Source of the DNA: a virus
IMG/VR virus record: IMGVR_UViG_3300014720_000181
Location: 1-24,317 of that record
DNA: 24,317 nt
Reading direction: 5' to 3' (one strand)
Each line of letters starts with the position of its first letter. Position 1 is the stretch's first letter. The translations under genes were made by a program, and so were the position numbers. Positions 17,644-23,708 of this stretch are shown here, piece by piece. The notes beneath the pieces are model-generated. The model saw only the letters and a program-made list of their open reading frames with translations. It ran no database searches and was not told the DNA's origin.

Positions 17644-19056
17644 ATGGCAAAAAGCCTGATGGAGAAACTCGCTCAAATGAGCGATGAAGAGAAGCAGGCT
17701 GTACTTGCGGGTGTTGACATGGATCAACTCGTGTGGGACTGGAAAGCCTGGGCCCGACCCGAGCAGCAACCACCGCCGGGAGATGACTGGTCAATCTGGC
17801 TGTATCTCGCCGGTCGCGGTGCGGGTAAGACACGAAGCGCCGCCGAGTGGATCCGCGAGAAAGCCAAAGACACATCAAAAGGAAAGTTGCGTTTCGCGTT
17901 GGTCGCAAGAACTGCGGCTGACGTTCGCGACGTCATTGTTGAAGGAGAATCGGGGATCATCAACGTGTCGCCGCCGAGCGAGCGTCCGCTCTATGAACCA
18001 TCAAAGCGACGACTCACTTGGCCGAACGGCAACACCGCGACATGCTTCACCGCCGACGAACCGGACGGACTTCGTGGTCCGCAATTCCACTACGCGTGGG
18101 CGGACGAAATCGCCGCGTGGCGACAGACACCTGACGCCGCTGGAATGACATCATGGGACAACCTCAGAGTTGGCTGCCGACTCGGGGCATCGCCTCAAAT
18201 TCTTGCGACAACCACACCGAAACGAGTTCCAGTTCTTTACGGTCTCATCGCGGAGTCTGATCGCACCGGTCGCGTCATCATCAGCCGCGGGTCGACAATG
18301 GACAACGCGGGCAATCTTTCAAGCACCTATCTCGAAGCGATTACTGGAGTGTATGAAGGTACTCGCTTGGCCGCTCAAGAACTTTACGGAGAAATGTTGT
18401 CTGATGTTGAAGGAGCGTTGTGGGTTCTTGATCTCATCGAGAGATCTCGGCAAAACACAATCCCTCACGCCGCGCCTCTTCGCATCATCGGGGTCGACCC
18501 GTCCGTCGCCGAGAATCCGAGAGACGAATGCGGTATCGTCGTCTGCGCGTCGACCGGCGAACGCGACCTGTACAAGCGTCACGCTTGGGTTCTTGAGGAC
18601 GCATCAATTCTTGGGTCGCCCGACATGTGGGCCAATGCGGTTGTCGCGATGGCGAGAAAGTGGGGATGTCCTGTTGTCGCTGAAGTGAACCAAGGCGGAG
18701 CGCTGGTGCGAAACGCGATTCAAACGATTGATCCTACGGTGAAAGTTCTAGAAGTTCACTCGAAGTACGGCAAAGCTCTTCGCGCTGAACCGATCACCCT
18801 CGCATACGAACAAAACAGGATTCATCATTTGAACTACCTGTCTGATCTTGAGTCTCAAATGTGTTCATGGGTTCCAGGAGAGGGCAGGTCCCCGGACAGA
18901 GTTGACGCACTCGTTCACGCGCTGACCGCTCTTTTGATCAAGCCGCCTGAAGGATTCCTTGGAGGACGGATCACCGCTAAGTCATTTGCGGGTCGCCGCC
19001 TGCCGTCATTCCGCGGGGGACAGAACAAAGGTTCACGCGTGTTTGGCCCGCGCTGA
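17644..19056 (+). CDS. terL: Terminase large subunit (packaging ATPase-nuclease)
   Basis: Drives DNA into the prohead and cuts concatemers. The 470-aa product has Walker A GRGAGKT (57-63), Walker B with DE (154-155) in FHYAWADEIAAW, the coupling motif ATTTPK (188-193), and nuclease-domain acids Asp285 (IIGVDPS), Glu347 (VVAEVNQGG) and Asp421 (SPDRVDALVHA). Normal length for the family. No Shine-Dalgarno precedes the ATG, which lies at +2 of a promoter, so the mRNA is probably leaderless. No gene with clear small-terminase signature precedes it. Confidence 0.95.
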   Translation: MAKSLMEKLAQMSDEEKQAVLAGVDMDQLVWDWKAWARPEQQPPPGDDWSIWLYLAGRGAGKTRSAAEWIREKAKDTSKGKLRFALVARTAADVRDVIVEGESGIINVSPPSERPLYEPSKRRLTWPNGNTATCFTADEPDGLRGPQFHYAWADEIAAWRQTPDAAGMTSWDNLRVGCRLGASPQILATTTPKRVPVLYGLIAESDRTGRVIISRGSTMDNAGNLSSTYLEAITGVYEGTRLAAQELYGEMLSDVEGALWVLDLIERSRQNTIPHAAPLRIIGVDPSVAENPRDECGIVVCASTGERDLYKRHAWVLEDASILGSPDMWANAVVAMARKWGCPVVAEVNQGGALVRNAIQTIDPTVKVLEVHSKYGKALRAEPITLAYEQNRIHHLNYLSDLESQMCSWVPGEGRSPDRVDALVHALTALLIKPPEGFLGGRITAKSFAGRRLPSFRGGQNKGSRVFGPR

Positions 19057-19088
19057 TACAGTTGAATAGGTGACAGAACGGAGTGAAC

Positions 19089-19565
19089 ATGTCTGACGAA
19101 ACAAAAGATCTGCCTGAAGAAAAAGTGGGCATACCTGCTGAAAAGATTGCCGACCCTGTTGAGAAGGTTGATCAACCTGCGGTGAGTGTAGCCACACCTG
19201 ATGAGAAGGTTGATCCGCCTAATGAGAAGGTTGATCCGCCTGTTGTGAAAGCGAAGTCGCGCCCGGTACGCAGAGCGGAACACGCGGTGTCAGGTGCTCT
19301 CAAAGATAATGTCATCCTCTCAAAGTGCGTGTTCAAGAACCAATGGCAACGAAAGTCACTTACGGTTCATCACGTCCAGCGTCGCCTCGGCGAACTTGGA
19401 TTCACATCTGGGTTGGATGACAGGGACGGTTGGTATGGAGAACTTACTCAGAGCGCTGTCGCATCATTCCAGAAAAAGATGGGAATTGTTGGCGACGGAA
19501 TGATGGATGCGGCCACCTTCAAAGCGCTGTTTGACGGGGATGAGAACGTAATAGTCAACGTGTAG
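19089..19565 (+). CDS. Peptidoglycan-binding-domain protein with N-terminal EKVDPP repeats, 158 aa
   Basis: ATG after ACGGAGTGAAC; a GTG two codons earlier is possible. Residues 10-53 are imperfect repeats of a Pro/Glu/Lys motif (EKVGIPA, EKIADPV, EKVDQPA, DEKVDPP, NEKVDPP), a flexible linker. Residues about 90-148 form a PG_binding_1 domain (VHHVQRRLGELGF ... DGWYGELTQSAVASFQKKMG). No catalytic domain is present, so it may anchor or target another enzyme or be a virion protein. It is followed by the gene-free repeat region. Confidence 0.82.
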   Translation: MSDETKDLPEEKVGIPAEKIADPVEKVDQPAVSVATPDEKVDPPNEKVDPPVVKAKSRPVRRAEHAVSGALKDNVILSKCVFKNQWQRKSLTVHHVQRRLGELGFTSGLDDRDGWYGELTQSAVASFQKKMGIVGDGMMDAATFKALFDGDENVIVNV

Positions 19566-19576
19566 TCAACCAGTAC

Positions 19577-19950
19577 TACGCGGTGCTACTTTCGCTTCGA
19601 TAGCGCACGCCTGTACTATGCGGTACTACTTTCGCTCAAATAGTGCTATTCTCCTCCAATAGTGCTATTCTCCTCCAATAGCGCACCCATTGTGCTACTT
19701 TCACTCTCGGAGTGCACGCTAGATCTATGCGGTACTACTCTGGGCTCTACACCGCTACGCACCACTACGCACCGCTACGCACCACTGCGCCTGCACTACT
19801 CGCACGCTCGTAGCGCACGCTAGATCCATGCGGTACTACTGGCGCGCGCGTAGTACACGCTAGATCCTATGCGGCACTACTCGCACGCGCGTAGCACTAC
19901 TTTCGTCAGGTAGTGCACGCCAGATGCTATGCGGTACTCACTCTGCGGCT
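19577..19950 (+). repeat. Imperfect repeats of TATGCGGTACTACT with hairpin arms
   Basis: Six copies of TATGCGGTACTACT or close variants (19577, 19617, 19726, 19827, 19868, 19928); four are preceded by CACGCTAGATC or a near variant. Between copies, arms such as GTACTA...TAGTAC (19833-19856) and GCACTAC...GTAGTGC (19894-19916) can form hairpins. Spacing is irregular (41-109 bp). No gene is supported here. Confidence 0.75.
19639..19680 (+). repeat. Perfect 19-bp tandem duplication
   Basis: AATAGTGCTATTCTCCTCC occurs at 19639-19657 and 19658-19676, then a third partial AATAGCGC. Each starts with the dyad AATAG-TG-CTATT. Confidence 0.85.
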
Positions 19951-20250
19951 TCGTCACTACGCGCCACTACCCACGGCCACACGCAACCACGCAACACTAC
20001 GCAACACTACGCACCACTACACGTCACTACGCAACACTACGCACCACTACCCATCGCTACACGCCACTACGCATCGCTACACGCCACTACACGCCACTAC
20101 GCACCACTACACAACGCCACGCACCACTACACGCCACTACACGCCACTACACACGACTATTCTCCACTACACGCCACTATTCTCCACTACACATCACTAC
20201 ACGCCACTACGCACGACTACTCACGACTATTCTCCACTACACACCACTTC
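19951..20250 (+). repeat. Thirty tandem 10-bp units (consensus ACGCCACTAC)
   Basis: From 19951 to 20250 nearly every successive 10-bp block fits NNNNCACTAC or a one- or two-base variant (GCAACACTAC, ACGCCACTAC, TCTCCACTAC, GCACGACTAC) in constant phase. The strand is C/A-rich and G-poor. The period is close to one DNA turn. Because 10 is not a multiple of 3 and stop codons are absent from the units, long meaningless frames run through it. Confidence 0.85.
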
Positions 20251-20433
20251 TGATCTCCACGCACGCTCGACGCACGCACGCACACTCACACGCACACTCA
20301 CTCACACATCACATACAACTCAACACACACACTCACTCACACGCTCAACACACACTCACTCACTCACACTCACTCACGCACGCAACGCACGCTCACTCAC
20401 ACGCTCACTCACACATCACACACTCACTCTCAC
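20251..20433 (+). repeat. CACTCA/CACACA low-complexity tract
   Basis: About 180 bp of CACTCA, CACACA and CGCACG words with almost no G except in CG steps, strongly strand-asymmetric. Continues the C/A bias of the decamer array. Confidence 0.8.
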
Positions 20434-20436
20434 TCG

Positions 20437-20480
20437 AAAAAACTTTCAAAACGCGTGAGAAAAAAAGTTCAAAAAAAGTT
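20437..20480 (+). other. Phased A-tracts (predicted intrinsic bend)
   Basis: A-runs at 20437-20442, 20448-20451, 20460-20466 and 20471-20477 are spaced 11, 12 and 11 bp apart; the last two are in the repeated word AAAAAAAGTT. A-tracts phased with the helix are known to curve DNA. Confidence 0.6.
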
Positions 20481-20569
20481 TGGAAACACTCCGAGTGCGG
20501 CCGCAGATATACGACCTCGTTCTTGCAGGTCAAGTTCAGTTATCATAATGTACTATTCTTTGTCTCTGT

Positions 20570-20603
20570 ACAATACCGTTTTGGCCTCCCGAACAATACC
20601 GTT
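20570..20603 (+). repeat. Direct repeat ACAATACCGTT (2 copies, 23 bp apart)
   Basis: ACAATACCGTT at 20570-20580 and 20593-20603, both followed by two bases and GGC. They lie about 100 bp before the dual-HTH gene and could be its operator or a packaging-site element. The rest of 20481-20692 shows no convincing gene or promoter. Confidence 0.55.
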
Positions 20604-20702
20604 CCGGCGTTTCCGCAGATCGCGCGTAGAGCTCCAACGCTAAGGTACAAATGTACTCAAATGTTCAGGCGTCCCTATGAGTGCATGATACTATGAAGAC
20701 AC

Positions 20703-21281
20703 ATGCAAAGAGACAGGCGCCCAGCAAGGAGAGCAAGGCTTCCAAGAAGTGAGGTTCTTTTGTTGCGTAGCCTGTCGCGTGCCGATGTTCGCGCCCGCGC
20801 CCGAGATCTGTACCGTGTGGGCTGGTCGCTATCGAGCATCGCCGAGGCGTTTGATCCGCCCAAGGCCCGCACCTCTGTCCGCTCTTGGCTCACCACATCT
20901 CACCCCTCTCTTGAACATCCTCTTCCGTCTCCCGCCTCTTCCGCTTCCGATTCTTCGTCTTCATCTTCAACAATAGATACGGCTGAAAGTTTGACCTCGA
21001 CCTCGCAGCCTCCAGCTCCCGCCCGCGTTCCGCGCGACTACCGACAGGTCGACTCGGCGGCGTCCGTCATCTCATCGAGCGAAAGATCTCGCGTCGCCGA
21101 GCTCGCGCCGCTGGCCCGCCGCTACCGCGCAGGAACTCCGCGGCTTGGCCCGCTCGGCGTCGCGAACGACGAGCTCACCGCGCTTGCTCGAGAGCTCTAC
21201 GACCGAGGAGCTCCTGTAAGAGAGCTCGCCGAGGCGGCAGGAGTGACGTACCGCGCGATGGCCCGGAGACTTGGCCGATGA
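20703..21281 (+). CDS. Dual helix-turn-helix DNA-binding protein, 192 aa (candidate small terminase)
   Basis: Two similar HTH units: residues about 27-62 (ADVRARARDLYRVGWSLSSI, then AEAF...VRSWL) and about 155-192 (LTALARELYDRGAPVRELAE, then AGVTYRAMARRLGR), joined by a Ser/Pro-rich linker. A basic N-terminus precedes. The start is uncertain: ATG 20703 has no good ribosome-binding site, and TTG codons at 20760/20763 follow a GAGG. Position between terminase and portal, next to a repeat array, fits a small-terminase or packaging-site-binding role, but this is inference. ATGA overlap with the next gene. Confidence 0.7.
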   Translation: MQRDRRPARRARLPRSEVLLLRSLSRADVRARARDLYRVGWSLSSIAEAFDPPKARTSVRSWLTTSHPSLEHPLPSPASSASDSSSSSSTIDTAESLTSTSQPPAPARVPRDYRQVDSAASVISSSERSRVAELAPLARRYRAGTPRLGPLGVANDELTALARELYDRGAPVRELAEAAGVTYRAMARRLGR

Positions 21282-21995: not shown

Positions 21996-23708
21996 GTGGG
22001 TGTCTTTCGCCGCGAAGAGTCAATCAAGCCGCGGTCAAACGCTCTAGAGCTGACCTCGTACGGCCAGCAAGCCAGATCAGCTGCATTCAACACGCCTCGT
22101 CCGCTGACCGCCGCGGCAACGCAGCTCAGGATCGGAGACCGCGGAGAAGCAGATCGCTTCAAAAGCCGCCGCACTGCTGGCTCAAGCGCTTGGCAGTCAG
22201 AAGCCTGGGAATACTACGACGCCATCGGCGAGATCAAGTATGCTTTCAATCTAGTCGCGTCTGTCGTCTCACGAATTCGTCTTTACGCCGCTGTTGTTCA
22301 CAACCCGGCCGAGTCTCCAATTCCAGTAAGATCGTCTGACAGAGTTGACCAGCGTCTTGGCGCCGCCGCAGAACGCGCTCTTGCGCGGCTTGACTCGGCG
22401 TACGGCGGTCAAGCGGGACTTCTCAAGGACGCTGCACTGAACTTGGCAGTCTCTGGCGAATGCTATCTCGTCCAGATGCCAGCGCGAATTGGACACAACA
22501 TCCCAGAGTCGTGGGACATTCGCTCAGTTGACGAGCTCATGATGGACAGCAAGGGCAACTACACTGTCGCGTCACGTCGCGAGCTTGCTACAGCTGGAAA
22601 TGCTAGTCGTTCTGGTGGCTCAAACAACGGACTGGTAAAGCTCGGCGGATCGGCGTTTGTCGGTCGCATCTGGAGATCGCATCCTCGCTACAGCGACGAA
22701 GCAGACTCGTCGTTGCGCGGTCTGCTTGACATGTGCGCCGAGTTGTTACTTCTCAATCGCACGTTCCGTGCGACGGCGCGTTCTCGTTTGAACGCTGGTG
22801 CTCTCTATCTACCAGACGGTTTGAGCGTAGCAGCTAATCCAGACCCGGACTATCCATTCGACTCAACGGACATGGACCCTGCTCAGACTCCAGAGGAGTC
22901 GGCAGACGAATTCGAAGATCAGCTTATAGACGCGATGACAACGCCGATCAAGGACGAAGACAGCGCGTCTGCTGTCGTGCCTTTGATTATTCGCGGTCCT
23001 GCTGAGCTCGGCGACAAGATCAAGCAGTTCAAGTTCGAGCGGTCGTTTGACCCGGCGCTCGCGCAACGCGCCGACCGCGTGCTCGAGCGAATCTTGCAAG
23101 GCCTTGATGTCCCGAAGGACGTCGTCACCGGCCTCGCGAACGTCAAGTACTCAAACGCGCTTCAAATCGACGAGTCGCTATACAAGGCGCACATCGAGCC
23201 GTTGATGCTGCTCATCGCCGACGCGTTGACCGTCGTGTATTTCCGTCCGTACTTGATCGCTAACGGCTTTGACGAAACAGATGTTCATAACCTCTGCATT
23301 TGGTACGACCCGAGCCAGGTAGCCACACGCAACGACCGCGCGCAAGATGCAGACGCAGGCTACGATCGCATGGCTATTTCCGCTAGCACATGGCGCAGAA
23401 CGCACGGTTTTAGCGACTCAGACGCACCGAATTCTACAGAGATGGCGCTGCGCATGTTGTTTGAAAAGGGTGCGATCACGCCAGAACTCACAGAAGCTTT
23501 GCTTGGCGCAGTTGCGCCTGACGTGATGCAGGCGATGCGCGCAGCCTCTCAAGCTGCCAATCCAGCGCCGATTCCAACAGAAGTTCAACAAATTCTTGAA
23601 GGCGGCGACTCGCCTGCTGCAGAAGCTGCTCCTACTCCGACACCGTTGGCAGAAGACCAGACGCCGCCGTCTCCACCAAGCTTACTTGAAGACACTAAGA
23701 GTAGTTGA
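21996..23708 (+). CDS. Portal protein, 570 aa, GTG start
   Basis: Forms the dodecameric ring at the head vertex through which DNA enters. GTG 21996 follows TAAGGAGCACAT; the overlapping ATG 21994 is in another frame that stops after 17 codons. The length, the N-terminal WEYYDAIGEIKYAFNLVASV segment, the stem/wing-like region (VLERILQGLDVPKDVVTGLA, NVKYSNALQIDESLYKAHIE) and Pro-rich acidic tail match actinophage portals. Position after the terminase agrees. Confidence 0.9.
   Translation: MGVFRREESIKPRSNALELTSYGQQARSAAFNTPRPLTAAATQLRIGDRGEADRFKSRRTAGSSAWQSEAWEYYDAIGEIKYAFNLVASVVSRIRLYAAVVHNPAESPIPVRSSDRVDQRLGAAAERALARLDSAYGGQAGLLKDAALNLAVSGECYLVQMPARIGHNIPESWDIRSVDELMMDSKGNYTVASRRELATAGNASRSGGSNNGLVKLGGSAFVGRIWRSHPRYSDEADSSLRGLLDMCAELLLLNRTFRATARSRLNAGALYLPDGLSVAANPDPDYPFDSTDMDPAQTPEESADEFEDQLIDAMTTPIKDEDSASAVVPLIIRGPAELGDKIKQFKFERSFDPALAQRADRVLERILQGLDVPKDVVTGLANVKYSNALQIDESLYKAHIEPLMLLIADALTVVYFRPYLIANGFDETDVHNLCIWYDPSQVATRNDRAQDADAGYDRMAISASTWRRTHGFSDSDAPNSTEMALRMLFEKGAITPELTEALLGAVAPDVMQAMRAASQAANPAPIPTEVQQILEGGDSPAAEAAPTPTPLAEDQTPPSPPSLLEDTKSS

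Follow-up and report, generated by a model that had tools for sequence, protein, structure and literature searches.

A close described counterpart of the locus considered here is lambda cos (cosQ-cosN-cosB), which it resembles in having a single conserved site beside packaging genes, with small-terminase-like genes adjacent. In phages of the lambda type, the cut is flanked on its left-end side by the R repeats and the IHF bend (PMC4856287). Cultured soil relatives, the Microbacterium phages Zooman, Big4, A3Wally, Pumpernickel and Cece, have homologues of both the large terminase subunit (TerL) and the two-HTH protein of this locus, a match to the putative terminus element described below, and a low-complexity right end of about 600 bp. 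The nearest GenBank genome is that of DSL-LC01 (129 kb), a phage assembly from Dishui Lake (PMC10611076). A further known system to be compared is the rut site of Rho-dependent termination, whose hallmarks are C in excess of G and a G-poor RNA that stays unstructured over at least 70-80 nt, with C at regular intervals; RhoTermPredict assumes a spacing of YC dinucleotides of 11-13 nt (PMC6407284).

The window, that is, the whole stretch of DNA that was analysed, is a virus record of 24,317 bp from a lake-water phage of an actinobacteriophage group. Its relevant features are the following.

17644..19056, + strand: gene of the terminase large subunit, TerL (Pfam Terminase_6N 5.6e-20, Terminase_6C 1.3e-9; 84% identity with TerL of DSL-LC01)
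19083..19565, + strand: peptidoglycan-binding (endolysin-like) gene, the last one before the spacer (Pfam PG_binding_1 3.4e-13)
19566..20480, no strand: non-coding low-complexity spacer of 915 bp, C-rich and G-poor (skew -0.46, C>G, for L001, which has the same sequence)
19566..19950, + strand: left part of the spacer, with 19- and 40-bp repeats (RNA fold z -2.9)
19951..20250, + strand: decamer array, about 30 in-phase 10-bp units, consensus CACTACRCNC, C46/G10
20251..20440, + strand: CA/CT-rich simple sequence prolonging the C-rich, G-poor tract, CA-rich at 20251-20435
20481..20576, + strand: single-copy conserved element (nhmmer E 2.5e-19), putative cos-like genome terminus
20640..20694, + strand: second GTAC box TAAGGTACAAATGTAC and promoter-like TGATACTAT, in conserved alignment columns just 5' of the HTH gene
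20703..21281, + strand: gene of a two-HTH DNA-binding protein (Pfam Terminase_5 5.2e-5, above the cut-off; phrog_7067, small terminase, 0.0012)
21996..23708, + strand: portal protein gene (phrog_776 8.4e-107)

The preliminary description had placed the array between terminase and portal. It does lie within the TerL-portal interval, its immediate neighbours being the peptidoglycan-binding gene, which precedes the spacer in most relatives, and the two-HTH gene. The array is a section of a longer repetitive tract that comprises the repeats at 19566-19950, the array itself and the simple sequence at 20251-20435. The left part of the spacer also contains perfect inverted repeats GTACTAC/GTAGTAC (19833-19856) and GCACTAC/GTAGTGC (19894-19916).

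The two-HTH protein is a candidate small terminase or accessory packaging protein, given its terminase-type HTH (the Terminase_5 match) and the adjacency of its gene to TerL in relatives. Its AlphaFold model (pTM 0.41) consists of two HTH modules and a disordered linker with no evident oligomerisation domain, and a PDB fold search with this model produced no match at E<=0.001. The promoter-like TGATACTAT may serve as the promoter of this gene.

The array was described as about thirty in-phase units with a strong strand bias, and both statements hold. Tandem Repeats Finder (TRF) reports a 10-bp unit repeated 29.4 times over 19955-20248, with 72% matches and 0% indels. The TRF consensus CACTACACAC is a rotation of the unit ACGCCACTAC given previously. 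A higher-order unit of 30 bp is also observed (8.5 copies, 77%). The mean identity at lags 10, 20 and 30 equals 0.73, and 1,000 dinucleotide-preserving shuffles never come near this value (0.33 +/- 0.02, maximum 0.38). The composition is A30 C46 G10 T15. It had also been suggested that a bound protein would meet one face of the DNA along the array. However, the period is exactly 10.0 bp and a turn of B-DNA is about 10.5 bp, so that the contact would shift around the helix by about 15 bp, or 1.4 turns, in the course of 30 units, and one-face contact is feasible only along short runs, not along the whole array.

The conserved element starts directly 3' of the spacer, 230 bp downstream of the array. 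It was found in 119 of 166 loci, always on the + strand, and occurs once in DSL-LC01. The next gene encodes the two-HTH protein in the lineage of the window; in L104-like phages it encodes another HTH protein, and in L163 the next gene is that of TerL. Since the element precedes whichever packaging gene follows, it is tied to the start of the packaging operon rather than to one gene.

The linear records of the Microbacterium phages end on the right with 570-652 bp of low-complexity non-coding DNA, and open 61-62 bp before gp1, a small-terminase-like gene (phrog_2538 6e-7). A profile of the joined ends was constructed from five phages of about 190 kb (Zooman, Pumpernickel, A3Wally, Cece, Big4). 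Plain HMM matches of the element to the Microbacterium ends are weak (best E 0.27), and plain nhmmer with the cultured-end profile was too weak alone; a register-aware score test was used instead, and only this pooled test is strong. Under the joined-ends profile, 43 distinct freshwater elements score above random windows with p=9e-14 and above shuffled elements with p=6e-8, and the best alignments mostly fall in one register. The right-end half alone gives p=2e-6 against shuffles, with 22 of the 43 elements in register (11% expected; p=5e-11). For the left-end half alone the respective values are p=0.013 and 18 of 43 (p=2e-7). As each half matches the cultured ends by itself and in register, the element is most simply read as a joined genome end. 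By this likeness it is probably a cos-like site, with a predicted cut at about 20512-20517, the two halves placing it some 4 nt apart.

Zooman and Pumpernickel appear to have unique ends: in neither genome was a repeat found that the first 6 kb shares with the last 6 kb. The element coincides with a genome end, as expected of cos, provided that the ends of the Microbacterium records are physical ends. The latter is presumably the case by the convention of the sequencing programme; no published account of the physical ends of Microbacterium phages was found in the literature. Of 62 contigs that contain the element's right half, not one begins at the predicted cut, although concatemers in the cell fraction would bridge it. 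No similar end was seen by eye in the Gordonia phages GodonK and Forza.

The right end of Big4 (L179, ON637770.1) is about 10 nt shorter than those of its relatives and does not contain AAATAAGGAT, present in Zooman. This is consistent with a trimmed overhang.

The overall reading, to which we assign a probability of roughly 55%, combines a cos-like terminus at the element, a satellite array in the right-end spacer, and insulation of the Rho type. The terminase would cut concatemers within the element at about 20512-20517. After the cut, the two-HTH gene would open the left end and the array-bearing spacer would close the right end, so that positions 19566-20480 would form the right-terminal spacer of a linear genome. 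The array would persist through replication slippage inside a spacer that tolerates any sequence. Finally, the C-rich, G-poor, unstructured spacer would stop transcription from the preceding genes. Such a Rho-type stop would shield the promoter of the packaging and structural operon as well as the packaging site, replacing the T-tailed terminator hairpins of many relatives.

In the window phage, the overhang, the cutting and the binding expected of a cos site are predictions. Joined ends of related linear genomes match the element, as they do for cos sites, and the GTAC boxes are situated to the right of the element, where lambda has the R sites. Unlike lambda, the window phage has on its right-end side a non-coding spacer that is both long and repetitive. 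The Microbacterium phages differ in that their TerL and two-HTH genes overlap (the two-HTH start overlaps the TerL stop, with no spacer between) and are separated from the end by over 20 kb, the end itself being occupied by gp1. The locus is read here as a putative cos-like terminus bearing an unusual, fast-evolving repetitive spacer. It offers, for a large set of freshwater actinobacteriophages not yet in culture, a candidate genome-end (packaging) site that can be tested, and the conserved signal is now separated from the conspicuous repeats beside it.

For the spacer with its array, the likeliest specific job is that of a Rho-type tract keeping transcription out of the packaging site, although we consider this assignment tentative and well short of an even chance. 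Like rut sites, the tract is long, unstructured, C-rich and G-poor, and follows the last gene of a transcription unit. In the array, C46/G10 is combined with a fold worse than that of shuffles (z +1.24) and with regular YC dinucleotides, 21 of 37 being in one phase, that is, about every 10 nt. However, this spacing differs from the 11-13 nt of RhoTermPredict (PMC6407284), and termination here is a prediction. The tract accounts for 460 of the 540 + strand windows of 78 nt in which C exceeds G by at least 20. Nearly every freshwater spacer has more C than G on its coding strand, the exceptions being L055 (0.00) and L060 (+0.09), whereas the median skew in 35 other intergenic gaps of DSL-LC01 is 0.00.

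Many relatives have a terminator hairpin just 3' of the preceding gene; no T-tailed hairpin was found on the + strand of the window spacer. The three most C-biased spacers, those of the window, L014 and L002, all have weak hairpins. The association is not firm. The first test of skew against T-tailed terminators produced no link (p=0.38), the rank correlation is not significant (p=0.17), and spacers without a strong hairpin are more C-biased only in a post-hoc split (one-sided p=0.028). Moreover, the right-end spacers of the cultured relatives have G in excess of C, opposite to the freshwater ones, which counts against the Rho role. These spacers open with terminator hairpins visible by eye.

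The main competing possibility, doubtful but serious, is that the spacer and array are neutral: slippage-prone sequence would gather where insertions beside the genome end are harmless, and only distance would matter. We collected relatives from IMG/VR, 80 by TerL and 80 by the two-HTH protein, and retained 48 distinct spacers after removal of near-duplicates. Their position is constant, but the sequence is seldom common to any two of them, and turnover is nearly complete even in comparison with L002, despite a TerL identity of 93%. In most relatives there are different repeats or no repeats at all; the strongly periodic spacers include periods of 6, 8, 16 and 58-66 bp, with homopolymer-like runs elsewhere. 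An exact search of IMG/VR for the decamer found matches only in the contig of L001. In the overall reading given above, the array is a lineage-specific tandem satellite, presumably amplified by slippage. The turnover and the varied periods agree with neutrality. On the other hand, neutrality does not explain why C exceeds G in nearly all spacers when other intergenic DNA is balanced. Nor does it explain why most lineages, and likewise the cultured relatives, keep several hundred non-coding base pairs. Most spacers measure between about 90 bp (in L050 and L060) and 1.3 kb; a few reach 2.5-4.3 kb, and some of these perhaps contain genes. Why tight packers, both freshwater and cultured, should keep such a terminal spacer is a question of its own. 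As it turns over faster than the nearby genes, the spacer could serve as a strain-level marker.

No other tract of the 129-kb DSL-LC01 genome is as periodic as the interval equivalent to the spacer. In that genome the annotated coding regions WJZ48502 and WJZ48503 are drawn over the non-coding spacer and the element (L081 10176-11340, corresponding to OQ999401.1 46238-47402). The conserved two-HTH gene of this genome (L081 11000-11608) is unannotated in its own frame, and an annotated coding region overlaps it in another frame. L012, L023 and L027 seem to have a small gene on the minus strand, its ribosome site resembling GACGAAAGGACA, within the spacer, between the peptidoglycan-binding gene and the element.

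A rather unlikely alternative concerns the element: it could be only a promoter or operator of the packaging operon, its likeness to the Microbacterium ends reflecting a shared promoter, with the genome end elsewhere. Indeed, the GTAC...GTAC boxes are located just 5' of start codons in both the freshwater and the Microbacterium groups. However, the cultured right-end half comes from the record end opposite to the promoter, and still matches the left half of the element on its own and in register (22 of 43, p=5e-11).

We return to the proposed terminus with a satellite spacer and to the possible role of the array within it. Decamer phase is strong in five spacers, those of the window, L002 (as 20, 40 and 60 bp), L012, L013 and L014. 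They belong to four separate clades of the TerL tree (the window with L002, and each of the others) and stand beside sisters without decamers. Because other periods are also present among the strongly periodic spacers, the excess of decamers over other periods is suggestive, but not established. The units of the window and L002 share some vocabulary (CTATTCTC, CTACTTTCGCTC); those of the other clades look unrelated. The repeat units of pac or cosB R sites and of iterons would be conserved, and the units of the window, L012, L013 and L014 are not. As the units differ by lineage and many relatives have no array, we rejected the array as a conserved recognition or binding site. Thus the earlier proposal of a packaging (pac/cos) site pointed to the right neighbourhood, the element being 230 bp downstream, but not to the conserved site itself.

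It seems unlikely, too, that the array is an auxiliary packaging element, analogous to the repeated R sites of lambda cosB or to the cosQ side, in which the small terminase (the two-HTH protein or a gp1-like one) or a host DNA-bending protein would bind the phased units. The short distance to the putative cut, the adjoining terminase-like DNA-binding gene and the recurrence of decamer arrays at the same place in four clades speak for it. The lack of relationship between units, the sisters with other periods or no array, and the spacers of only about 90 bp in L050 and L060 speak against it. So does the exact 10.0-bp phase, which leaves one face, and the R sites of lambda lie on the opposite side of the cut (PMC4856287). 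The array of the window exceeds its shuffles in curvature (z -7.3); none of the other four decamer arrays does, and shared intrinsic curvature was rejected.

Decamer arrays might also re-evolve at the right end because helical periodicity, and not sequence, is what the packaging motor or a protein bound at the terminus reads, the spacer acting as a sequence-independent packaging-termination or ejection element; we regard this as improbable.

A replication site had also been proposed. An iteron origin or partition site, suggested by in-phase direct repeats adjoining an HTH gene, is very improbable: the cumulative GC skew of DSL-LC01, the closest complete genome, has only a local dip at the locus and no switch, the unit is not conserved, and it is absent in most relatives. 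Equally improbable is the formerly suggested long structural RNA, or a coding sequence: the 19566-19950 region does fold better than shuffles and all three + frames are open over the array, but the array itself does not fold better (z +0.36 on the - strand, the + strand value being given above), a search of Rfam with the array found no match, the open frames follow from a stop-free decamer read in three phases, and no conserved frame was seen among relatives.

Several further observations were made on the packaging genes. A homologue of Microbacterium gp1 is encoded in DSL-LC01 at OQ999401.1 20787-21461 (20.8 kb), where it is annotated as hypothetical; the coding region annotated as the terminase small subunit (127932-128171, - strand) is a different protein of 79 aa. 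The Microbacterium phages L083-L086 have extra genes annotated as terminase ATPase or nuclease domains between the two-HTH and portal genes, besides the full TerL. The TerL coding sequence of Microbacterium phages, of about 2.3 kb, matches the TerL of the window in two pieces, possibly because of an intein.

Finally, a 23-bp promoter-like repeat GAAACTAAAGTTGTTATAATGGA with a TATAAT core occurs at 20 sites on the + strand of the window between positions 1936 and 16980 (at most 3 mismatches; chance expectation 0), with none on the - strand and none beyond 16980. These repeats look like a phage-specific early or middle promoter regulon that ends before TerL.
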